This document shows, in pieces, positions 32,801 to 61,987 of a DNA stretch of 64,000 nt. The notes below the pieces were generated by a model. That model had not been told where the DNA came from and made no database searches. It was given only the letters and a program-made list of their open reading frames with translations. The position numbers and the translations under genes were made by a program. The DNA lies in NCBI RefSeq assembly GCF_029962835.1, contig NC_080575.1, forward strand, positions 63,033,493 through 63,097,492. Reading direction: 5' to 3'. Source of the DNA: Magnolia sinica (lineage: Eukaryota > Streptophyta > Magnoliopsida > Magnoliales > Magnoliaceae). Every line of letters starts with the position of its first letter. Position 1 is the first letter of the stretch.

Positions 32801-32836
32801 ACCGTCGTACAACTCGGAGCTACAAGTCTTCGCACG
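32801..32836 (+). repeat. 36-bp direct repeat, left copy
   Basis: ACCGTCGTACAACTCGGAGC (first 20 bases) through CGCACG, identical to 45859-45894. It abuts the CACTA-1 left terminus. Confidence 0.97.
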
Positions 32837-32848
32837 CACTACAAGAAA

Positions 32849-33660
32849 TTTCACTTTTACCTACGAAAAATTTCGTAGGTAAATGATATTATTTCGTAGG
32901 CAAAGAATTTTACCTATGAAATATTTCGTCGATATATTCGTTGGTAAAAAGCCGTGGCTAAAGACTTTTACCGACGAAAAAATGTCATCGTCGGCAATGG
33001 TAAGACTTTTACCAACGAAATTAAAAACTTTGTTAAGACTTTTACCTACGAAGTGTTAAGACGTAAAAACTTTGTTAAAACTTTTACCTACAAACATTTT
33101 CGTAGCTAAAAACTTTGCTAAAACTTTTCCCTCTGAACATTTTCTTAGCTAAAAACTTTGTTAAAGCTTTCACCTACGAATTTTTTCATAGGTACAAATG
33201 GTGTTAGGACTTTTACCTACGGGCATTTTCATAGCTACAAACTTTATTAAAACTTTTACCTACGACATGTTTCGTAGGTACAAACTGTATTAAGACCTTT
33301 ACCTACGAATGTTTCCGTAGTTATAAACTTTGTTAAAACTTTTACCTACGAATTTATTCGTAGGTACAAACGGTGTTAAGACTTTTACGGAAACACTTTT
33401 ACCAACGAAAAAACATTTGTTGGCAAAGATAAGACTTTTGTCGACGAATGTCTTCGTCGGTAAAACCTTTTACCAACGACGTCTTTCGTAGGTAGAAATT
33501 ATTACAAAAATGTTACCTACGAATCTTTTCATTGGTAAAAAGTATTATAAAACTTCTTCCTACAAATATTTTCGTAGCTAAAAATATATATAGAACATGA
33601 TGAGACTTTTTACCTACGAAAAGTTTCGTGGGTAAAAATGCATTCTTTTACCTACGAAAA
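32849..33660. repeat. CACTA-1 left subterminal repeat array
   Basis: Dozens of TTTACCTACGAA / TTCGTAGGTAAA units, often paired head to head with a short spacer and so hairpin-forming. These are typical of CACTA subterminal transposase-binding repeats. Confidence 0.9.
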
Positions 33661-33699
33661 TTCTTCTTCTGTTTTTTTTTTCCAATATTCCAGTGAAAA

Positions 33700-33785
33700 A
33701 TTCCTGAAATACACCTGTTACAATATATTTCATCATATTCTTCCTGATATACACCTGTTATGTAATATATTTTATCATATTCACA
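33700..33785 (+). repeat. Short tandem repeat of about 42 bp, two copies
   Basis: TTCCTGAAATACACCTGTTA...TATTTCATCATATTC is followed by a similar second copy. Confidence 0.75.
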
Positions 33786-33909
33786 TTCATTCACACTAAT
33801 GGGCTCAACTTGTAGGAACTGAGATATTACATAACGTCCTCGAGTTGCAGATCATACAATTCATTTGTTCCCGACACTGGCTAACAAGTAAGGAGACTTC
33901 ACAAGCTAC

Positions 33910-34147
33910 CTGTACCAGCTGGGCCCATGCTTACTTTATTTCTACATCCCCTACCACCGCCAAAACCACTACCGCCTCGGCCGCCTCCAAATCGGCCACC
34001 ACTATCTCTGCAACCTCTACCACCGCCGCTCCTGCCACCACCTTCATGGTTGTCACTTGGCTCAAGGCGTAGTCCCCAAGTTCTGAACCGTTAAGTTCCA
34101 AGGCCATGGAGAAACTATCAGCATCTGTTAAATCTAGGTAAGCTGAC
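33910..34147 (-). pseudogene. Captured nucleolin-like fragment (RRM end and GAR tail)
   Basis: Minus-strand acceptor (TTTGCAG) before 34147 and donor (CAG|GTAGCT) at 33910. The start reads AYLDLTDADSFSMALELNGS, matching the end of the second RRM of plant nucleolin ('ALELNGSELGG'). In another frame a Gly/Arg-rich tail (GGGRSGGGRGCRDSGGRF) and PAGTG follow, as in the nucleolin C-terminus. One frame change separates the two. Plant nucleolin is a nucleolar protein of rDNA transcription and pre-rRNA processing. This is a fragment inside CACTA-1, not a working gene. Confidence 0.7.
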
Positions 34148-34549
34148 CTGCAAACAAAGGTGAGGCAAAAGTCACCTAACAAGCAACAACCAAACAGATA
34201 TGGAAAATCCCCAAATTATTTGCTCAAAAAAAAAGATAAAAAGAATATGAGTAGGTATGTCAGAAGTGGCAATATTGAAAGAAATGGCATCTTCCCATTC
34301 AACACGGCAGTAGTATACATGGGGCCAATCAGCACATTTCTTGGGTTGACTTCCACAGAGCACACAACTACACTTAGCATACATCTATACACACTGGCAA
34401 AACAAACCGCAAGAGCCTTTTTTTTTGAAAGGTGTAATAAAATACAATAGCTTTTCTCAAAAGATGTCAGAACAAAATCGCGAGCATACCTACGCACATT
34501 TGACATTTAGCAAAACAATTAGCTTTTTCACAAGACCTCTTGTCACAAA

Positions 34550-34640
34550 TAGCTTGGTCTAATTAAAATACCATCATCCTGAATAGCCTGGTCTAATTAA
34601 AATACCATCATCCTGAATAGCTTGGTCTAATTAGAATATG
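34550..34640 (+). repeat. 34-bp tandem repeat, about 2.6 copies
   Basis: The unit AGCTTGGTCTAATTAAAATA...CATCCTGAAT is repeated head to tail. Confidence 0.9.
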
Positions 34641-34799
34641 ATGCAACATGTATGTATCTTGGAGCTGAGCAAGCTACAAACATAGACTGTTGAATAGTTT
34701 GAAAAAGAAAAGAAAAGATATGAAAACCATCATCCTAAATAAAACCATAGTGAAGGTAAAGGACATTCTGTTAGCAATATAAAGATGGAAATGGGCATG

Positions 34800-35052
34800 G
34801 AGCTTCAAAACATTCTGTTGATTCTCCCTTGCTAATGGAAAATTAGTAACCTGCATTGCCAGAAAAACATGAAAGAACACCACCAAGAAATCCCTTTTAG
34901 AAAGAAGAAGAAAACACACGCATGCATGCAACTAGCTCAGGCAAGTAGTTAGTATATGACAGACCATTCCTTCCATCTACAACATAAGTTGGCCGCCCCA
35001 TTGTTGCTTCAGCTTAGTTAAAAGGCTTTGTTCATGGTCAACATTCATGCTC
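34800..35052 (-). pseudogene. Captured cullin-1 fragment (two exons and intron)
   Basis: The minus-strand exon 35052-34966 follows a TTGACAG acceptor and reads SMNVDHEQSLLTKLKQQWGG ... MEGM. A second piece follows an ATGCAG acceptor at 34850 and reads VTNFPLARENQQN. Together these match the plant CUL1 stretch '[31 protein letters not shown]'. CUL1 is the scaffold of SCF ubiquitin ligases. The first exon has an in-frame stop, so this is a non-coding capture. The intron between the exons is kept, so genomic DNA rather than mRNA was captured. Confidence 0.8.
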
Positions 35053-35110
35053 CTGTCAAACAACAAAAGATAATCCAGAAACCTTCCTTGAACAAGGAAA
35101 TCATTTACCA

Positions 35111-35226
35111 TAATCTAAATCATTGAAAAGTCTTTCAGGAGGGACAACCTTTTGCATTTTGACAGTTAAAAAGTTCAAACGTTCATATTTCACAATTCTC
35201 CGCTTATTCTTTAGTAATTCATATGC
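35111..35226 (-). pseudogene. Captured exon of an unrecognised gene
   Basis: A minus-strand open exon with a TTTCAG acceptor before 35226 and a GTAAAT donor after 35111. It reads AYELLKNKRRIVKYERLNFL and ends PPERLFNDLDYG. It looks like a genuine exon (clean borders, no stop, coding-like composition) lying between the RPAC1 and cullin-1 fragments. I cannot name the source gene. Confidence 0.55.
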
Positions 35227-35431
35227 CTGAAACAGATTTAGCAAACCATATTATCTTTGACTTTTTACCTTGATTACAGTTTCTTCCTTCCACATATCAA
35301 ATCCCTTGAAGAAAGACCTTGAATAAGTACCTAATACATGCATTAAAAAAAAATAAAAATCAATGTACAAATAAGCCCAATTCAAATTAATGAAAGCCAA
35401 AATAAAAATAAAAAGTCAACGAACTGTCAAC

Positions 35432-35530
35432 CTGAAACATATTCGAACAGCCTTGGGTCAGCTTTGATGGGAGTAAGGCCCAACCTATTGGCTAGGACTT
35501 TATCTTGGACCACGATGTGTTGTCTACACC
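35432..35530 (-). pseudogene. Captured RPAC1 (AC40) exon of RNA polymerases I and III
   Basis: The minus-strand exon reads [20 protein letters not shown] then LFEYVS, ending at a CAG|GT donor at 35432. It matches the conserved '[25 protein letters not shown]' of RPAC1, the alpha-like assembly subunit shared by Pol I and Pol III. Only this exon is present, so it is a fragment. Confidence 0.85.
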
Positions 35531-38033
35531 AACCATCTCAAAAGATGGTTATAAACAAAAAGGAAAAGTCATGTGCTATACAACTGCTTCTCTCTGTAAA
35601 CATCAGCAGGCTCCTTCCCAAGTACGTGCTACACAACTGCTTTTCTCTGCACATATTGAATACAATTAGTAAGATTTACACTTTAAAAAAGGACAATGAG
35701 AACCTAATTACCCTATCATTCAACTCGACTTGGCAAGATTTTGAGTTGCGTCTCTTCAAAACTTGTTGGAGATTAACTCTTTAAAAAAACTTGCTGGAGA
35801 TCCTGTCTTGATCCGGACTCAACAAGACTAGAAACATGTAAAGAGTTCTCGCAGGAATCCATTTCTAAGTTAAATCTTCAATTACACTACATCAATTATG
35901 TTTACTAACAAGTAAACAGGCACTTCACCTTTACTATGTGTGCTTTCCAACAAAGCAAAATGGGACGAGATGTCAATTGACCTTTCAACCAATCATGAAA
36001 AACAATTTCCCTGGACCCTTTCACAACCACACCTTGTCTTGGGAAAAACTTGAATCATGGATGAAAGGTTCACATTCTTATATCAATGACATGGATAATT
36101 TATATAAACCAAGATCACTGAAACATAAATACTCTTAACTAAAATGAGATGAACTAATTTTAATTTACATTGCAGGTGGATTGTTAATGACAACAATGAT
36201 GGATATGCATGGCAACATCACATTTGCTGATTGAAATGGAACAATTCAGTCAAACCCATTTCTTAAAAATGTTTCTCTTAGCATTAGGAAGAAAGGGGAT
36301 CCGTAAAACCAGATCAGGCCGGTTGGTAGTAAGATAGAAAAGCTCGATCACATTTGCTAATCTCACTTAGCACCTAAGGTTGGGAACTGACCTGGATCTT
36401 CAATAGAAGAAAACTAATTCTTCTGTCTCAGAAATTGCACAGAACTGTATAATCATGAAGAACATAAAAACATCCTATACTCTAGGATGCACAGATGGAC
36501 TTTGTCAACATGTACCATGAGGACCCCTTAAGAAACTGCCACCGCTAATTATGCACAAACCACAATGAGGCTGTGTTTTGATGTACTCCAAATCACTGGT
36601 TATTCATATATTTTGGCAACAAGAACAGCCATCAACTCGCCAAGCATTTCAGATGGAGTAAGAAACCAGAATCACATTATATGGGATACGGTGTCTCTAC
36701 CTTCTCTGCACAAAATAATATCCAAAGTGTTTCATCCTACCCAAAACAGAAAGGTATTAATATTGCAGAAAAGCATCCCATCCCACCTTTCTAAGAATAT
36801 CCAAAATCCAAGTACGGTTATACCCAATTGCGAAGTTCAGGAACAACCAAAAATGTTGGCTTCTCATTCTTATATCACTATTCTTTCCAAAATTGTATAA
36901 AGCTGTAACAAACACCCCAAGTACGTAATGTGCTTATTATAACATACACCCCAAGCACCCATTTCCCAATAACTGGCATTGATACCGCAGAAGCTACAAT
37001 CATACCCACATTTAGATTTTATTTTTTTTTTCCTTTTTCTTTTTTGCCTTTAATACCCTCTAGGCAGTTTAATTTTAGGCAGATGTGCCATTTCTGAGTG
37101 CCAGTGTATCATCCATCACACCCTGCCAAAGTATCAAATCATATACAGTAGCATGGGGCCCACATAAACTTGCCCCTAATTTTATTTGTCCTGAAAGTTG
37201 CGGTTGCTGATTTACTTTCTAAATCTGTTTTCAAGAATCCATCACTTGTGCAATTATTCATAGTAAAGTAATTCATCAACAACATAGAAATACATAAATG
37301 CAAAAACTGTGATGATGCACTCATTCCATCCAAATGTAGCAAGTGATAATCCACACTATAAATCCAATGAATCTCAGTGTGGATGGAAGATGCCCTCTGA
37401 TAGAGAGGTTCCTGATCTTTCGATCAATGTCCCTGGAGTAAACGGTTAAGGAAAAAAAATACAGCAATAGTCTGTAAAAATGCCAAAGAGTGGATGGTTA
37501 GGAACTTCCACTTGGTTCAGGTTCCAATAAAATGAGAACTTGTGAGATTGTTGACAAATTACAAATGCAAATCAGATTTTATCCTAGATATGAAATCACC
37601 ATTTTCTGTTCCCCTTTTATTCTTCCAGGTGTGGGGATTGATTGGAGATCGACTGAAGCACCTAGAGAGATGGGGAATTGACCATCAAATATGGTACTTC
37701 TTGCTTCTAATTTTATTTCAACCCTTGGGCTACTTTAGTTCACAAGCTGCATCCATGTTATACCAGTGCCTTATCCATGCCATATCTAGTGAAAATAGAA
37801 CCTGAATTTCGAAATCCACTCTGGCACTTGTATTAAGCTTTTACAATACAAGCAATGAGAATATTAGGAAGCTAATAAGCATGTAAGTAATGAGTGTACA
37901 TAGAATGGAAAACTAAACCAACGGCTACACTATGTTCACAAAACACTAGCTTTAAAAAAACCTCCACTTTAACATAGAGAGTTCTATTAAAACATGAAAA
38001 TGACAGCTTTAAAAGAAGACTCCGAAAGAGTAC
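35531..38033. other. CACTA-1 interior without recognised exons
   Basis: Several open frames of 60-110 codons exist on both strands, but none shows recognisable protein motifs. A plus-strand stretch at 37628-37805 follows a TTCCAG acceptor but is unrecognised. Captured intron sequence is a likely source. Confidence 0.4.
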
Positions 38034-38109
38034 CTGAATGACAGCAACACCACCAGAGAGTTTTGCTATTCTTTCATTAAGCCTCTCTTTCATAATCCTG
38101 TTCAGCATC
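38034..38109 (-). pseudogene. Captured plastid chaperonin-60 beta exon
   Basis: A minus-strand 76-nt exon between TTTTTGCAG and CAG|GTACTC. It reads [20 protein letters not shown] then GVAVIQ, an almost exact match to plastid CPN60 beta ('[24 protein letters not shown]'). CPN60 beta forms the plastid folding chamber that assists Rubisco assembly. The exon is intact but isolated inside CACTA-1. Confidence 0.9.
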
Positions 38110-38944
38110 CTGCAAAAACCCAAAATATATATGCCACTAAGGTTGCCATTTGAGGTAGTATTCATCTTGCATTATTACCAGCTACTCCATTGCCTACATA
38201 TTTGATAATACCCTGTGTGTATCTCCATCGCACTCCTAAAGCACAATAATCCAAATGATTCAAGTCTACAAAGAGTAGATTATGCATTTTTACAGAAACA
38301 AAGAAGTAATTGAGCATGAACCTGTATAATGTCAGCTGGAACATAAGTTTCTGTCCGTATAATCACGAGACAGTTTAATAGGCCAACATGTATGCCATCA
38401 TAGTACTAAGTGAACACTAATTTCACTTAAGACATAGGTTTCCCACACCGCTCCCAAATCCATATCGAAACATGTCAAATGCAATTCTTCTCATGCATAG
38501 AAGAATAAATGTAACATGTTTATTAATGGATCAAAAATGTGGAAGGCAAGGAGATAAAAGCAATGGAAGGGTCAAAGGGAAGAAAAATATAAGACAATCA
38601 TCCATCCTCCCAACTTGCAGAAGTTCAAAGTAAAATATGCAGAATAAGAAGGTTAGGTAAATGCAATTCTCCTCAAAACACAATTTATTGGTCATGCAAA
38701 CTTTCTTAGGGAAAACAAAAACATGATTCACAAAGATAACCCAATCAAAGATAATGCTTAGAAAACATCATGTAACACCAAAAATATTAATGCCATGTGA
38801 ATTTGTAAATTTAAACTATAAGAAACATTCCTTAAAGTGAAGCAGGCAGAGATGTATACTTATAAAAAGTTTCCATCCAAAAGGCATTTCCTGTTAGAAG
38901 ACAACCCAGAAAGAGAAAAAAACAATGTCAAAATTTCCACATGA
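38110..38944. other. CACTA-1 interior between the CPN60 and VPS32 fragments
   Basis: A short minus-strand frame at 38344-38162 (LGVRWRYTQGIIKYVGNG) is open but unrecognised; ETYVPADIIQ near 38355-38325 might be another captured exon edge. Nothing firmer is seen. Confidence 0.3.
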
Positions 38945-39215
38945 TGGAAGCAATCAGTAAGATGTTCCTCCAACTCAGCTCCCTCCAATTCCTCGAGCTC
39001 TGCCTCCAGTTCATTCTAACATGGTGAAAAGATTATATTCAGAATCTCCAGCTAGAAAAAGTAAATGGACAAATGAAGATTTATGCGAGGATGAACGTAC
39101 TTCATCAAAATCAGCTGCTGTGCCAATAGGAGTAGACAGTGCTTCCTGAATCTGTTTCATGTTCTCAGTCTGCTCGTTGATCTCATCCATTGTCTTGTCC
39201 ACATCATCAATGTTT
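38945..39215 (-). pseudogene. Captured VPS32/SNF7 (CHMP4) fragment, two exons and intron
   Basis: The minus-strand exon 39215-39101 (acceptor TTTACAG, donor GTACGT) reads NIDDVDKTMDEINEQTENMK and continues QIQEALSTPIGTAADFDE. The next exon begins at 39015 after GTTAG and reads NELEAELEELEGAELEEHLT. Both match plant VPS32 (SNF7), the main filament subunit of ESCRT-III in multivesicular body sorting. The 85-bp intron is retained. The N-terminal half is absent, so this is a fragment on the same strand as the other CACTA-1 captures. Confidence 0.9.
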
Positions 39216-41639
39216 CTGTAAAATAAAACACCATTATGGAATTATTGAAACCAGTTTTGCAATAAACGAGTAGAGTGAAAATTTTCATTTAAAACTAAGA
39301 ATGGGAATTCACATGTGTGCAAAGTGCTGTCATCTCAAAACACCATCAGGCCATAAGAAAGTGATTTCAAATGCAATGGGGAAATGGTTGAAGAATCCTA
39401 GACTGGATGTTCGTGTATCACAATTTTGCATTGGAAGAGGAGAAATTTTTCACTAGAACTAGGTATCATTGTGGTATTTCCTGTGCAATTTTTGTAAAAT
39501 ATGGTATTAAGATCCAAGCTAATACAAAGCTCACATCCTCCACAAGTGTTCCATTGTGGCAAAACCATTGCCCAATCCATATGATTTTGTCCATGAACAA
39601 TACGGTTGTATCATCCACGTCACCGGATAAGGGTGATATGGCCCATTTCTATTGGTGACATAAACGGCCCACCAAAACCAATTTTCAATCGTCCACATTT
39701 TGATATAAAGACTTGATAAAATTATAATCATTGTTCTATTTGTTTAGTAAAAGAATATAACTAACATGATTATTATTATTTTTTCAGGTATGGACATTGG
39801 ATTTTTCAAATATCTAGCTCAATGCCAAGCATTCAAACTTCAAAATGGCCGTTTGAATAAAATCAGTCTGAAAAAATGAGTGACTAGGATATTACATGGA
39901 TGAGAAATTTGTACACAAGTGTGGGGTGTGCTGCTGGTGCTGCTACAAGGTTACACACATGTCAAAACACATGTTTTTTTAGATGTTTATATGTAATTCC
40001 AACCTAGAAAAATACATGAGCTCCATGCATGGTTTTTTTTTATTTTTTCAAATTGAATAGATTTTTGGGGTCCTGTTATCATGGTGAGGCGATGTGGATT
40101 GGCAGGTTAGATGCCATACAAACAGGAGGGTGGGCCCAACAGAAAGCTAGTTGCAGGATATTCTCATCCACAACAGCTGTAAAGGAAGTGGCCTCGAAGA
40201 AGAAAAGGGAGGTGGAATTTGATTAGACTAGTGAGTTATAGTAAGAAACAGAGTCACCATCAAGAGAAACACTGACAAGAAGAAAATTGAATGGAGAGGT
40301 GCAGCAAATCAGACAGGTGCATCAAAGATGATAAGGGTTTTCAAAAGTTGTTATTGAAGACTGTTGTATTCTTCAAGTTTGTTGCAACAACTTTATCATA
40401 TACACATCCACTTGTTTATACAAATAAAGCAATATTTTCTTCTACAACTCTAATTCATAACTCAAATGCCCATAGTCAAAATATCCATCTGCCAACATCA
40501 TCTGCCTGAACTGAGAGAACTGGATTTCATAAAAAACTGCCAGATGATGTGGATAGAGCATGATATTTTAGATCGCATATATCTAATGCTTCATGAATTC
40601 ATATTATGAAACTAAAGTCTATAGGATTTTTTGTCGTTATTCATATTATGAAATATATTTTCAATTTCATTATATATCATTGTAGGTGTGCCAGCATATC
40701 AGGTTTTCCAAGGTTCCAATGTCCAGCACCTGGTGTCTGTATCCAACACGGACACACATGTCCATGTCCAAGTTACATACAAATTTTCACGAATGCAATA
40801 TAAGGCTTGAAAGAAAGCATTCACCCAAAAATTCATTCTGGATATCGACGGACAGTTGGAACAGAAAGCATTCTGTTAATGTAGAGGCCACTGCTTAAGG
40901 TTAATGTCTTTTAACCAAAAGAAGGAAAATGTACTACATCAATAGCATCAATCTCTATCTAGAAAGGAAGGAGAAAATGAATCTGGGTGTGCTAAAAAAT
41001 ATTTGAAAATTAAAAAGGAGAGATGTTTCGAGGAAAGTAGCTGGAAAACTCTAAATGCTATCAGTGCCGTTTGTCAAGCAACTTACGAACAATTCAACAA
41101 CAAACTAATTTAGGAATAATGAGCAAGAGAAAAGTAATTACCAAGAAGAGAAATTATATGACTCATACAAACTAGTGGAAGCAAAGTAATCATCAAAAAG
41201 ATACATGCACATAGCTGGATCTAATAGTCTGGCACCCGTAAAAATCATATACCCATGATTCAAGTAATCATAATCACTACAATTGCGGTGAAAGCTATGA
41301 CATGTTTAAGATAAAATACAATAACAACTACAATAGCATTAAATGAATCGATAAAAAATAGCTGAATCAAATGGTAGTAGTAAATGTTAGAACGAAGCAT
41401 ATATCTTTTTTTTCTGAAAGTGCTTGCAATGGCGCCTCTCAATCTAGCAACAAAGAGGGAAACCAGTAGTCCCAGATGCACCGAGACAAGTCAATGATGG
41501 AACTCCAATCGAGATGATGAAGGGTCCTCTGAGGTTTTCTGAGGTGATGAATCTGATAGAGGGAGAGGGAGCACGACACAGGGAGAGGGAGATGGAGCAA
41601 GAAACGGCGAGAGATGGAGCACGAGATTGGGGAACAGAG
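39216..41639. other. CACTA-1 interior, mostly noncoding
   Basis: Repeat-like blocks occur near 39500-39700 and 39780-40120, with scattered short frames of no recognised family. No exon is supported. Confidence 0.4.
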
Positions 41640-41687
<48 letters not shown>

Positions 41688-41790
41688 GGGAACGAATAGA
41701 GAGAGGGAGGAAGATGAGAGAGCTGGAGCAAGATCGGGAGAGAGATAGGGTTAGGGAACGGAGCGCGCGCGCGCGAGAGAGAGACAGAGA
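41640..41790. repeat. GA-rich and GC-repeat tract
   Basis: An uninterrupted GA tract (about 41642-41684) and a short GCGCGCGCGC run (41764-41773) around a TAGGGTTAGGG motif. On the minus strand this is a CT-rich stretch with CCCTAACCCTA, like a plant 5' leader with a telo-box. Confidence 0.75.
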
Positions 41791-41869
41791 GATTCAGATA
41801 TTTGGGGTTTTTTTGGGCGGGCCTCTTTTTGAGAGCGCGCCCAAATTTTGGGGTTTTTTTTGGTAGGAC

Positions 41870-42320
41870 TCTGTGGGCCCCACCATGATGCGTGTCAAAC
41901 ATCTACCCCATCAGTCAGATGCATCATCACATGATGGGCCCAGGGATTAAAAATCAAACCAATCTATAACTTTTGTGGGCCACACCACATACAAAAGTTG
42001 AGAGGGGTTACTCTCCATTAAAACATTCATAATTATTTTTTGGGCCCACAGAGATGTGGTCCACAAATCCAGCCCATCCATTATGTGTATGCCACTTGGA
42101 TGAGGGGTCATACCAAGTTTCAAACGCATCCAAATTTCAGTTGGGCCCCACTAAGTGCTTTTATATGTTTTAGGCATGTCTTCACATGATTTTAGATGGT
42201 ATGGCCCACCGGAGTTCCGTATATGGCTGATTTTTGGGATATCCCATAATTTAAAGGGGACCAATCAAATGCATGGTGTTGATGTTTGACACACGTCATG
42301 GCGGGGCCCACATAACTTGA
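41870..42320 (-). mobile_element. MITE-like repeat, family A, inside CACTA-1
   Basis: It runs from TGTGGGCCCCACCATGATG to CATGGCGGGGCCCACATAAC, in the opposite orientation to the full copy at 61488-61987, with the outermost terminal repeat degraded. Confidence 0.75.
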
Positions 42321-42981
42321 CCTCATGGGGACGGCATGGATTAAACACATACATCATGGTGTGGTCCACCTGAGATTTATATCCCGAAAAATGGATGAAC
42401 AATGTGGATTGATCCCAAATTTTCAGTAAATCCAAAACTCAAGTGGACCATGCCACACGAAACAGTGTGGAATAATGATTTCCACCATTGATACCTTCCT
42501 CAGGCCCATAGTAATGTTTATTTGACATCCAACATGTTCATAATATCACGAAGATATGAATGAAGAGAAAACACAAAAATATATGAATTATTATAGGCCA
42601 ACTATGATGAAAGTGTAAAATCCACTCCGTCTATCATTTTCTCTTAGAATGAGATCTAAAAAATCAGATAGATCCATTGTTAAAGAAATGGAGAGCAGAT
42701 ACCATCATTTGTACCAAAGTAGCCCATGGGTGCAAGATCTAAGTCGTACATTAGGTAAGTCCCACCGTGTACGTCTTTGATTCCAGTTTACTACTCAAGT
42801 GGATCACATATTTATCTTCCCCGACCTTCAAATAGCTGCCCCAAACATATTAGCTATAGAACCTTGCATCACCCATATGCCCGTAGTTTCTTGAATTGCA
42901 GTTTTTTTTTTTTTCTTTTCTGTTGGAAGGTATAATCTCAACAAATGATTCAAGAAGACTTCAACGACCTTGAAGCAGAGA

Positions 42982-43270
42982 CTAAAAAGTCAGATCTTTT
43001 GGATCCTCAATGATCTTCACTAGAGTTTGCAAGAATGAAGTCAAATCAACACCATATATAACACGATGATTTGCAAATACATTCACCTGCAAGCATTCAC
43101 AATTTTGCCCAGGTGAGTTTGTGGAAGGCTCAAGACCGGAGGTTCCAGGCTTCCAAATAACTCATCAGGCCGAATGTTTCTCACTTGCACATCTGACTTT
43201 TCACACCAATCTGACCATCCTTGGTAGCAACTACAGTTGGTTGGGATGCTCCAATGGCTATGATTGCACC
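42982..43270 (-). pseudogene. Captured plastid pyruvate dehydrogenase E2 (dihydrolipoyl acetyltransferase), C-terminal exons
   Basis: The minus-strand exon 43270-43185 (acceptor TTTTGCAG, donor GTGAGA) reads GAIIAIGASQPTVVATKDGQ then IGVKSQM. The last exon, 43086-42982 (acceptor CTTGCAG), reads VNVFANHRVIYGVDLTSFLQ and ends IIEDPKDLTF plus a stop. This is the C-terminal catalytic end of plant plastid E2 (LTA2/LTA3 type), which transfers acetyl groups to CoA in the pyruvate dehydrogenase complex feeding fatty acid synthesis. Compared with the family, a 2-nt insertion near the first exon's end would shift the frame, and the active-site DH motif is replaced (ANHR for ADHR). The natural stop is included, so capture reached the gene's 3' end. 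Confidence 0.92.
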
Positions 43271-44195
43271 CTGCAAAACAGTCCATTACAAATTTGGCAG
43301 TCAGACTCTTATTTGTGTATTTGAGAGTCCCCTTGTTTTTTTTTTTTTTTTCTTTTCTCAAAGTGGGTATTTGATTTACATGGTGCAGCATCCAGTGAAT
43401 TTCCTGAAGACACAAGAGTCAGGAAATTCAATTTTCACCCATGGCATAGAATCACAAGTGTTCCCTGCACTTGTTAAAATTAAATGACACTAGCAGTGCC
43501 ACCGGTCCTTGGGCCAAGACATGACCTTGACTGCTTATTAAGTGGATTGCTACTGAATTAGTTTAGTGGGTGTTTACACAAAACTATGCTGACTAATGAA
43601 GAAGTTTCATAATGCAACCAAATGCACCATTACCCAAAAACAAACACCAATTGGATTATCCTAAATATCCATATTATGGGCTGAAAATGGATATTTAAAA
43701 ACAAAAATCACCAACACATATAACAAATAAGAAGAAAATCAACTCTGATATGGTTAGGATTGTTTGATTAAGGTAACTTATGTAGCTATTCCACAATGAG
43801 ACCCACCAAAATAAAAGGTTGAAATTACAGGGGAAAATCATTTCCCATACACAATATAAGGATAAAAGAAAACATGAACTCTGTTGTAAGTGACTAACTA
43901 GTGCATATACCAAGTCATACTCATCCAAGTGACTAACTAGTGCATTTCTGATCACCCTTTGTGAAAAACTACAATCATGCGGATTTTCTGTACTCTGAAA
44001 AACTACAATCATGTGGATTTTCTATATTTGTTAAGAGGAGTTTCTTCAAGGCATATATCAAGTACTCAAGGTATCGGTCGGCCTAGTTTCTCATCTCTAT
44101 TATGCTCTCTCTGTGAGGTTTTCTTGCGTTATTTTCAACTGTTCCAAGCCCGTGCCAACCAAAATCATAATGTTAAACAAACCCGGCCCTAGTGT
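43271..44195. other. CACTA-1 interior, no recognised exon
   Basis: A T-rich tract lies at 43336-43352. A short repeated phrase (GTGACTAACTAGTGCAT, near 43891-43945, and GAAAAACTACAATCATG, near 43966-44012) shows local tandem duplication. No gene is seen. Confidence 0.5.
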
Positions 44196-44722
44196 GGGGC
44201 CCACCTTGAAGATGTGTTATATATCTACATCGTCCATTCATTTTACCAGTCCATTCTAGGACGTGGTTCCAAAAATTGAACAGATCTAAATATCAGGTGG
44301 GGCTCCTAGACTTGGTAACTGGTGTTGAACATCTACCCCATCAGTCAGATGTACCATTCCATGATAGGCCTAAGGCTTAAAAATCAAGACAATCCGTGAC
44401 TTTTTTGGGCCACACCACATACAAAAGTTGAGAGGGGTTACCCACCATTAAAATATTCATAATCATTTGTTGGGCCCACCGAGATGTGGTTCACAAATCC
44501 AGACCATCCATTATGTGTGTCCCACTTGGATGAGGAGTCAGACCAAGTTTCATATGCATCAAAATTTCAGGTGGGCCCCACCAAGTGCTTTTATATGTTT
44601 GAGCCATTTCTTCACATGATTTTAGATGGTATGACCCACTTAAGTTCTGTATATGGCTGATTTTTGGCATATCCCATAATTTAAAGAGGTCCCATCAAAT
44701 GCACGGTATTGATGGTCGAGAT
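44196..44722 (-). mobile_element. MITE-like repeats, families B (fragment) and A (partial)
   Basis: Family B phrases lie at 44196-44300. Family A sequence runs from 44325 and is cut at 44722, where the CACTA-1 right subterminal array begins. Confidence 0.65.
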
Positions 44723-44729
44723 GCTATAA

Positions 44730-45858
44730 AAAAAAGACTTTTACTTACGAAATATTTCGTCGGTAAAGGTTTAATTTATATATTTTAGAAAAGTTTTTAC
44801 CTACGACAATTTTCGTAGGCAAAAGTGTCAACGTTTGAAATTTAAAGTAGATATTATATTTTTACCGGCGAAACATTTTTTAGGGAAAAGTCTGATAAAT
44901 GTTTTTTACCTACGAACAATTTCGTAGGTAAAGGTCGAATTTTACTACGATTATTTTTTTACCTACGAACCATTGTGCAGGAAAAGTCTCATACACGTTT
45001 TTTAGCTACGAAATATTTCGTAGGTAAAAGCCTCATCACCTACGAAACTAGTTGCAGGTAAAAGTCTCATAGACGTTTTTTTACCTACGAAACCGTTAGT
45101 AGGTAAAAGTAAACTTTTCAATTTTTGATTTTTTCAAAAATTTAAAACACCTTTACCTGCGACAACTTTTATAGGTAAAGATGGGTTTTACCTACCAGAT
45201 TCCATTTTGTAGGTAAAAGTAATCTTTCGTTCGTACTGCCCTTCAGGCAAACACAGTTGAAAATTTGAAAACACCCTTTACCTATGAAAATTGGCGTAGG
45301 GAAAGATGACTTTTACCTACAATAGTTAAATTCGTCGGTAAAAGTAAACTTAAGTATAGTTGGTAATTTGAAAACACCCTTTACCTACGAAAATTGGCAT
45401 AGGAAAAGATGACTTTTACCTACAACAGTTAAATTCGTCGGTAAAAGTAAACTTAAGTAAACTTGATTTAAGACACCTTTTAGCTACGAATATATTCGTA
45501 GGTAAAGATAGTGTTTAAAAATATTTTTTTGTATTAAAAAAATTGAAAACACCCTTTACCTACGACAATTTTCGTAGGTAAATATGACATTTACCTACGA
45601 AATTACCTTTCGCTGGGAAAAGCGGTAAAAATATTTTTTTGTATTTAAAAAAATTGAAAACACCCTTTACCTACGACAATTTTCATAGGTAAATATGACA
45701 TTTACCTACGAAATTACCTTTCGTTGGTAAAAGTAAAATTTTTGGAAGGAAAAATTGAAAACACCCTTTACCTACGAAAATATTCGTAGGTAAAGATAAC
45801 TTTTACCTACCAAATTTAATGTCGTCGGTAAAAGTCATCTTTACCTATGAAAATTAAT
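44730..45858. repeat. CACTA-1 right subterminal repeat array
   Basis: Repeated TTTACCTACGAA / TTCGTAGGTAAA units, as on the left, including a larger internal duplication of about 120 bp (around 45535-45730, two copies). It ends abruptly at the 36-bp flank repeat, without a CACTA terminus. Confidence 0.9.
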
Positions 45859-45894
45859 ACCGTCGTACAACTCGGAGCTACAAGTCTTCGCACG
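45859..45894 (+). repeat. 36-bp direct repeat, right copy
   Basis: Identical in all 36 positions to 32801-32836, and followed by the presumed original continuation of the target (ACACGTACCC). Confidence 0.97.
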
Positions 45895-47612: not shown

Positions 47613-47621
47613 GTTCCAAGC

Positions 47622-48085
47622 TATGTAGGCCCCACCATGATGTGTGTCGAACATCAACACCATGCATTTGATGGGTCCCCTTTAAAATATGGGATATCCC
47701 AAAAATCAGCCGTGTACGGAACTCAGGTGGGCCATACCATCTAAAATCATGTAAAGACATGCCTAAAACATATAAAATCACTTGGTGGGGCCCACTTAAA
47801 TTTTATATGCGTCTAAAACTTGGTCTAACCCCTCATCCAAGTGGGACACACATAATGGATGGGCTGGATTTGTGAACCACATCTCGGTGGACCCAACAAA
47901 TGATTATGAATGTTTTAATGGGAGGGTAACCCCACTCAACTTTTGAATGTGGTGTGGCCCACCCAAATCATGGATTGACTTGATTTTTAAGCTTGTGGCC
48001 CACCATGGGATGGTGCATCTGACTGATGGGGTAGATGTTCCACACGCATCACCGTGGCACCCACACAGCTCTACCTCATGGGAAG
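47622..48085 (+). mobile_element. MITE-like repeat, family A
   Basis: Same orientation as the copy at 61488-61987, from GTAGGCCCCACCATGATG to ACACAGCTCTACCTCATGGG. It lies upstream of the beta-glucosidase gene. Confidence 0.75.
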
Positions 48086-48745: not shown

Positions 48746-49258
48746 CCTCTTTAGATGCTATGGGTTATACAAATGCTACTGAGATTTTGAAATGTCGATA
48801 TTATTGTGAAAATGCGTTAATGATGTTATCATGATATTATCAAAATCTCAACAGATTAAAAAATACCATGTTTTTATTGTGATAATATTGTGACATGACT
48901 CAAAAATTAGTCAAAATAATAAGGATTTTTTATATGTAAATATATTTTTATATTTAAAATTTTCTTAATAATTTAAAATAAATATTTTAAAGTATTTTTT
49001 ATATGGCAAGATTTTCTCAATAATTTCTTGAGAAAGAAAATTAAAGTTTGAAAATCTCTCGAGAAATTGTTAAGAATGACACGTGTCACCATGGATATGA
49101 TCGTGGTTGTAGAATCCAGTGTGAAAAGAAAACAAGGGCACCGGACACTTAATGGACAGGTAGGCGCAGGAAAAGGTCTATGTAAAGGGACTTCCCTCAA
49201 TCATTCTCCAAAGCATCCTTGGTTTTGAGCATTTTGATTAGGGTTATATTAGCTCGAT
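48746..49258 (+). promoter_or_regulatory. Upstream region of the beta-glucosidase gene
   Basis: It includes a very AT-rich stretch (48900-49030) with ATATTTTTATATTTAAAA-type sequence. No clear TATA box at a fixed distance from the ATG can be defended. The sequence just before the ATG (TATTAGCTCGAT) shows no start-codon competitor. Confidence 0.35.
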
Positions 49259-61219
<11,961 letters not shown>

Positions 61220-61487: not shown

Positions 61488-61987
61488 CACGCTCATGGGA
61501 ACTCCCCATGAGGTCAAGCTGTGTGGGCCCCACCACAATATATGTTGAATATCAACACCATGCATTTGATGGGTCCCCTTTAAATTATGGGATATCCCAA
61601 AAATCAGCCGTATACGGAACTCCATTGGCCATACCATCTAAAATCATGTGAAGACATGCCTAAAATATATAAAATCACTTAGTGGAGCCCACCTAAAACT
61701 TGGATGCATCTGAAATTTGGTCTGACCCCTCATCCAAGTGGGACACACATAATGGATGGGCTGGATTTGTGAACCACATCTCGGTGGGCACAAAAAATGA
61801 TTATGAATGTTTTAATAAAGGGTAACCTCTCTCAACTTTTGTATGTGGTGTGGCCCACACAAGTCAAGGATTGACTTTCTTTTTAAGCCCTAGTCTTACT
61901 ATGGAATGGTGCATCTGATTGATGGGGTAGATGTTCGACATACATGATGGTGGGGCCCACACAGCTCGACCTCATGGGGAGTTCCTC
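61488..61987 (+). mobile_element. MITE, family A, full copy with long terminal inverted repeats
   Basis: The left end GGGAACTCCCCATGAGGTCA...GGGCCCCACC and the right end GGTGGGGCCCAC...TGACCTCATGGGGAGTTCC-type sequence are inverted repeats of about 55 bp. About 500 bp, no coding capacity. Partial copies: 41870-42320, 44325-44722, 47622-48085. Inserted in intron 4. Confidence 0.8.

Follow-up and report, generated by a model that had tools for sequence, protein, structure and literature searches.

Carriage of host-gene pieces by CACTA transposons is well documented in plants: Pack-CACTAs and CACTA elements rich in gene fragments have been described, several with more than one donor. In soybean, Tgm-Express1 (found in the wp allele of F3H) is a non-autonomous CACTA of 5.7 kb with five host-gene sources (PMC1947982). 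How the gene pieces get into such elements is unsettled. For Pack-CACTAs, capture by fusion of neighbouring (tandem) insertions has been modelled (PMC8903248, PMC13317346). For the Pack-TIRs of animals, gap filling and FoSTeST template switching have been proposed, with microhomology found at many breakpoints (PMC8277862). Rice sites from which DNA transposons have excised can hold fillers of 1-123 bp (PMC4423477). Here we consider an element of about 13 kb (element 1, positions 32837-45858) in a 64,000-nt stretch of Magnolia sinica contig NC_080575.1, the window hereafter. With fairly high confidence, we read element 1 as a now disabled member of a multicopy family of non-autonomous Pack-CACTAs: a mosaic built by template switching, whose right end bears a scar of templated repair. 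The scarred copy, its siblings and its sister repeats are related intermediates, useful for telling fusion, gap repair and second-hand exchange apart.

Like Tgm-Express1, element 1 is a non-autonomous CACTA that holds exons and introns of unrelated host genes. Tgm-Express1, however, is 5.7 kb long, sits in one gene intron and is transcribed, whereas element 1 is about 13 kb, exists in at least 11 long copies, draws on six or seven sources and has had its right end replaced by flank DNA. With the Pack-CACTAs of Arabidopsis and maize (PMC8903248) it shares captured coding DNA, several loci per element and termini of the CACTACAA type, of which element 1 keeps the left one. It departs from the fusion model published for them in that no inner remnants were found and that its pieces are shared with other repeats. 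The animal Pack-TIRs are mostly hAT and TcMariner elements, with single parental captures in the cases compared, in contrast to a multi-source CACTA mosaic. As with the rice fillers, DNA loss at a break goes together with copied DNA in element 1, but at the rice sites the element is gone, whereas element 1 remains, minus 46 bp. The original prediction, which a model made from the sequence of this stretch, had proposed a Pack-CACTA with at least six gene donors and had called that number unusually many. On the first point it was right: element 1 is a Pack-CACTA, and its gene sources number six or seven. "Unusually many" is too strong, since multi-donor Pack-CACTAs were already known (Tgm-Express1; maize). 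The prediction made no mention of the lost right end, of the 36-bp flank copy that stands where a 3-bp duplication would be expected, of the multicopy family or of the recurrence of the fragments at other loci. The kind is therefore familiar; it is the relatives that are unusually informative here.

The mosaic family and its captured exons

The genome searched comprises 1.84 Gb in 127 contigs, the window included. A 5.6-kb piece of the cargo served as query, and 40 of the 1816 candidates were scored, so that the counts for the family are lower bounds. There are at least 11 long copies including element 1, 95-100% identical over about 5.6 kb; the search for further copies suggested with the original prediction has thus found the same mosaic at 10 other places. 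Beyond these the query gives at least 2 partial copies, at least 8 matches to its first 2.5 kb only and at least 20 shorter ones. The p-distances among the 11 long copies range from 0.4 to 3.4%. From the majority sequence, element 1 differs by 1.0%, six copies by 0.4-0.5% and four by 1.1-2.6%.

The copies stand in different flanks and have therefore moved as a unit. At the place where the right end was expected in the ten siblings, it is of CACTA type in five (that of C19 ends in TAGTA), degenerate in one (L067), and absent from the stretch read in four. Four of the five with a CACTA-type right end are bordered by matching 3-bp target duplications (agg for both C11 and C3, tgt for C14, gct for C19); the fifth, C6, has flanks taa and cat and no matching duplication. 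C3, C11, C14 and C19 have both CACTA-type termini as well as the duplications, and contain the same one-strand mosaic with introns. Since introns are retained, the captured material was genomic DNA. The CACTA ends and the 3-bp duplications of the siblings point to a CACTA, which bears on the alternative of a Helitron.

Element 1 itself begins with an exact CACTACAAGAAA at 32837. Allowing one mismatch, the left-terminus sequence is matched 3 times in the window, against 0.68 times expected by shuffling. On the plus strand, the left CACTA terminus (CACTACAAGAAATTTC) and a subterminal repeat array occupy 32837-33660, and a right subterminal array occupies 44730-45858, ending short of a terminus: the last 46 bp are missing by comparison with C11. 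The repeats are palindromic, and all 18 plus-strand occurrences of TTACCTACGA in the window lie within these two arrays. The right terminus, CTTGTAGTG, does not occur in the 64-kb window. In the genome CACTACAAGAAAA is found 2600 times, against 151 times for the reversed pattern. The exact left terminus and the arrays at both ends had been claimed from the start, and both claims hold.

The interior appears to offer no transposase of its own: the 119 minus-strand and 128 plus-strand open reading frames (ORFs) of at least 27 amino acids in it gave no match to a transposase family at E up to 0.1. The genome holds at least 150 matches to Transposase_21 (PF02992) above the cut-off (all 150 scored, of 1669 candidates). 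A transposase source in trans is present, then, although its action on the ends of element 1 is only putative. Family elements would have been moved in trans by these abundant CACTA transposases, and the duplications, the copies in different flanks and the Transposase_21 genes support such movement.

Between the arrays lie nine exons, all on the minus strand, from six named sources plus one exon without a database match; their borders were placed by our own reading. An AG acceptor is present in nine of nine, and a GT donor in all six that are neither last nor cut. Every captured piece is partial. The PDH E2 piece consists of a last exon with its natural stop (42982-43086) and a second-last exon with a frameshift near its end (43185-43270). 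The joined peptide matches Pfam 2-oxoacid_dh at 2.5e-11 (3.3e-4 for the unjoined ORF). In a comparison set of four E2 loci confirmed among 106 stretches, it is 65, 59 and 59% identical to three cyanobacterial E2s and 34% identical to one from Verrucomicrobia; being closer to the former, it is taken to be of plastid type. Both the plastid type and the natural stop had been predicted. The two VPS32/SNF7 exons, at 38963-39015 (truncated near 38959, where a module border falls) and 39101-39215, are open and match Pfam Snf7 (1.8e-14) and PDB CHMP4B (2e-8). The CPN60 exon (38034-38109) carries a 2-bp frameshift; it matches GroEL/CPN60 chains in PDB, at best with E 0.0012 over 22 amino acids, and has no Pfam match. 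We presume it to be of the beta type.

The RPAC1 exon (35432-35523), open as well, matches RPAC1 in PDB at 2.5e-7 and nothing in Pfam. The cullin exon (34965-35052) has an in-frame stop; Pfam Cullin is matched at 1.4e-3 and 17.9 bits, under the cut-off of 33.2, and no cullin is matched in PDB. The no-match exon (35109-35226) is open and has AG and GT borders; Pfam and PDB gave no match, and its piece stands by itself, at 90-94% identity, in 7 further loci. Finally, a frameshifted last exon at 33899-34147, with a longer open relative (L073), is what we take to be nucleolin-like from its RRM half and glycine/arginine-rich tail; the exon matches nothing in Pfam or PDB, nor does the longer relative in Pfam. 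The databases support SNF7/VPS32, PDH E2 and RPAC1 well, CPN60 to a fair degree, cullin weakly and the nucleolin-like exon not at all. The partial minus-strand exons of the six named sources and one more, as originally predicted, are thus there, with cullin and nucleolin-like the weakest identifications. All six named sources lie on one strand (a chance of 1 in 32 if independent), but we give this bias no weight because three of the exons move as one block.

Two further features of element 1 may be mentioned. It contains one whole and one partial copy (41862-42331 and 44322-44719) of a nested repeat that has inverted ends, measures about 460 bp and resembles a miniature inverted-repeat transposable element. 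Two other copies lie at 47617-48075 and 61503-61964, and the copies are 87-88% alike. A stretch rich in CT on the sense strand lies 5′ of most exons, at 41500-41870 on the minus strand in element 1 and at 50260-50440 on the plus strand in element 2 (see below). From their likeness to plant 5′ untranslated regions, these stretches could be captured promoter regions.

Assembly of the mosaic

All of the pieces searched also match outside the mosaic family, at carriers known from short stretches of sequence. A sister family of eight copies (L026-L033, family B) has the left terminus and shares the module at 32837-36197 at 91.6-93.5% identity. Only this left 3.4 kb is common; an unrelated tail follows. 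Over the 1.5 kb read, the tails of the seven other copies match the L029 tail at 97.8-99.9% identity, a closeness suggestive of recent amplification. The tail past the shared module is another cargo.

Within that module, a block with the cullin, no-match and RPAC1 exons (34582-35723) is common to five loci of other context (L035 and L037-L040; L040 to 35541). Four of these are alike over 1.8 to 3.3 kb, the fifth over less. A 576-bp piece of the block has at least 27 whole matches (40 of 78 candidates scored), which we class as 11 long copies, 2 partial copies, 1 older relative, 8 sisters and the 5 block loci. Among the 40 scored, 6 further matches cover only about 35156-35523 and 7 only about 35062-35256.

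The other pieces are similarly shared. For CPN60 there are 12 loci of family type, 17 of other context at 90-94% and 9 short matches (38 of 38 scored). Two of the other-context carriers, 0.7 kb of each being read, are 94% alike over 700 bp; in both, the exon is without the 2-bp deletion and has a stop at its start. The E2 piece has 29 near-complete and 11 partial matches among the 40 scored of 41. By our coordinate assignment, 11 of the near-complete ones are in family loci and 18 elsewhere; no match falls in the C18 copy among those scored. For VPS32 all 17 candidates were scored: 11 are family copies and 6 are not. The best match outside the family, L054, agrees with the piece at 97.5% over 510 bp that include the intron, and its C-terminal VPS32 exons stay open through the natural stop. 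For the nucleolin-like piece all 27 candidates were scored, and 22 are of family type; among the 5 that are not, L074 is next to a CACTA array. The partial copy L025 joins 37093 directly to 40721. Many loci contain the unit at 37247-37606 with identical borders and at 73-97%; rather than a captured module, it could be a nested repeat.

Such close relatives at other loci suggest second-hand capture: the mosaic was probably built, to judge from these alignments, largely from fragments that had already been multiplied, rather than straight from genes. The sharp module borders suggest that it would have grown through template switching during break repair inside the element. Template switching fits, by inference, the scar described below, the rice excision fillers (PMC4423477) and the animal Pack-TIRs (PMC8277862). 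More tentatively, and at somewhat less than even confidence, the exon fragments could form a common pool among repeats, from which Pack-elements take amplified fragments from each other by template switching, swapping whole halves of their cargo, termini too, and seldom sampling the genes themselves.

Several observations weigh against second-hand assembly. The true donor genes of the E2, CPN60-beta, cullin, RPAC1 and no-match exons were not located in the genome, and second-hand assembly is held at moderate confidence for that reason. The one CPN60 gene met among the candidates (L084) matches over only 45 bp, at 87%. L054 is one of five similar loci and so may itself be a carrier. With the donors mostly not located and L054 in such company, any single piece may have been captured directly. 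No right end was found for the sister family in the short stretches read, nor any terminus within the 1.5-kb flanks of the five block loci, and most of the other carriers, being read as short stretches, are putative CACTA elements at best. Of 12 loci (10 siblings and 2 partial copies), 6 have a left end of the element 1 type and 4 a different CACTA-like one, whereas 2 have lost theirs. Similar cargo between different left ends could reflect exchange, but part of the difference could be divergence.

Other candidate donors were rejected. L075 and L076 have E2 exons, with the last exon absent in the stretch read; they resemble each other and look like further pieces. For L085, another E2 candidate, the match is confined to the exon and the adjoining intron side, with 81% identity. 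L081 (G000:C4:61919950-61920450), considered as a CPN60 donor, also looks like a further piece, a chimera in which a 66-bp CPN60 scrap lies close to another exon. We take that neighbour to be protein-kinase-like, and the gene at L084 to be alpha-like.

The strongest competitor, though an unlikely one, is fusion: the inner ends of two neighbouring CACTA insertions are lost, and the pair then transposes as a single unit along with the intervening DNA, repeatedly. It can draw on the terminal deletion of element 1 and on the second Pack-CACTA about 4.3 kb downstream. Fusion predicts inner termini or inner subterminal repeats, however, and a BLAST search with the right array gave 59 matches to the left array and a single one to the interior, at its border. 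A 14-base motif (up to 3 mismatches) likewise occurs in the interior 0 times forward and 1 time in reverse, against 6 and 2 times in the window outside the element. Old inner remnants could have decayed or been deleted, and we disfavour the model rather than reject it.

Quite improbable, again on sequence grounds, is a functional cargo, in which minus-strand transcripts would be spliced to chimeric RNAs, or small RNAs would act on housekeeping genes, much as the original prediction envisaged. Spliced RNA from element 1 is possible because its exons are co-oriented and keep their splice borders, with AG acceptors and with GT donors where expected; the captured exons of Tgm-Express1 offer a precedent, being spliced (PMC1947982). 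The frameshifts in the E2, CPN60 and nucleolin-like exons of this copy and the stop in its cullin exon speak against it. In the alignment of 11 copies, moreover, 79 of 791 exon columns segregate, against 367 of 4890 elsewhere. As the exon columns are no less variable than the others, there is no sign of the cargo being kept for function.

The lost right end

The alignment of element 1 with C11 shows few substitutions up to an AATTAAT, after which the 46 bp leading to the terminus are absent. This overturned an earlier estimate from symmetry of about 30 bp lost. In place of the missing end are 36 bp of the left flank, which run directly into the right flank. The result is an exact 36-bp direct repeat, both units on the plus strand: the original in the left flank (32801-32836) and the copy that replaces the terminus (45859-45894). 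The copied sequence stops exactly at the insertion point, since the left unit abuts the left junction. In the 1.84-Gb genome the 36-mer has exactly two exact matches, both at element 1 (reversed control, 0). The target site of element 1 accordingly shows the 36-bp repeat and no 3-bp duplication.

A single step of templated repair, with the left flank or an empty site as template, accounts for both the lost end and the flank copy. After Ds excision, abortive gap repair with filler DNA is reportedly seen. In element 1, a break would have occurred near the right end, for example at a failed excision. The stretch copied from the left flank or from an empty site would then have been attached to the right flank, and the element would have become immobile. 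On the other side, plain microhomology is absent at the joint; a shared CGTCG lies 2 bp off. In the papers compared (PMC1947982, PMC8903248, PMC13317346, PMC4423477, PMC8978399, PMC2773423, PMC8277862), a set thin on subscription articles and seen in part, we found no case in which a copy of the opposite flank stands in for a CACTA end.

Two other origins of the repeat are rejected. A pre-existing tandem duplication of 36 bp, with insertion exactly between its units and later loss of the right end, would also yield two copies. It is very unlikely, since the insertion would have to hit the border between the units exactly and the deletion to stop at that very point, and the genome has no exact match to the 36-mer elsewhere. 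Less credible still is an unusually long target-site duplication made by the insertion itself. An exact direct repeat does flank element 1, but the right terminus is missing, the repeat begins inside the array, and of the five siblings with a readable right end four have 3-bp duplications while the fifth is without a long repeat in the bases compared.

That the exons are real, collinear genes at this locus, the outcome the original prediction had named as its refutation, is next to inconceivable given the stops and frameshifts, the mosaic at 10 other places and the VPS32 exons with an intact C-terminus elsewhere. It should be noted for annotation that exon-like pieces of housekeeping genes can, in such a genome, be multicopy transposon cargo.

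A second Pack-CACTA and the rest of the window

Element 2 (50149-59272) has the termini CACTACAAGAAA and TTTCTTGTACTG (its right end reads TACTG), with TTA on both sides. It seems to occupy intron 1 of a gene for a beta-glucosidase, in the sense direction of the gene, whose exon pieces at about 49253-49477 and 59819-59886 match Pfam Glyco_hydro_1 at 7.3e-19 when joined. Being apparently intronic, it is the closer parallel to Tgm-Express1. The plus-strand cargo includes pieces of eIF2A (2.2e-8) and UDP-sugar pyrophosphorylase (8e-13). A further exon, without a Pfam match, we presume to be from a kinesin.

A 2.24-kb piece of this element (52100-54340) has at least 5 whole copies, element 2 included, and at least 54 matches (40 of 1534 candidates scored). 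It splits sharply into modules at 1-494, 486-1138, 1134-1602 and 1602-2241, each of which recurs alone elsewhere; two of the four recur together in certain loci outside, about 150 bp from each other. Adjacent modules overlap by 9, 5 and 1 bp, which may be microhomology or alignment spill. Element 2 supports the modular picture drawn from element 1.

Outside 33640-44740 the window holds Copia-type retrotransposon domains (RVT_2, rve and gag); 235 ORFs there reach 58 amino acids or more, and the domains come from the longest 150.

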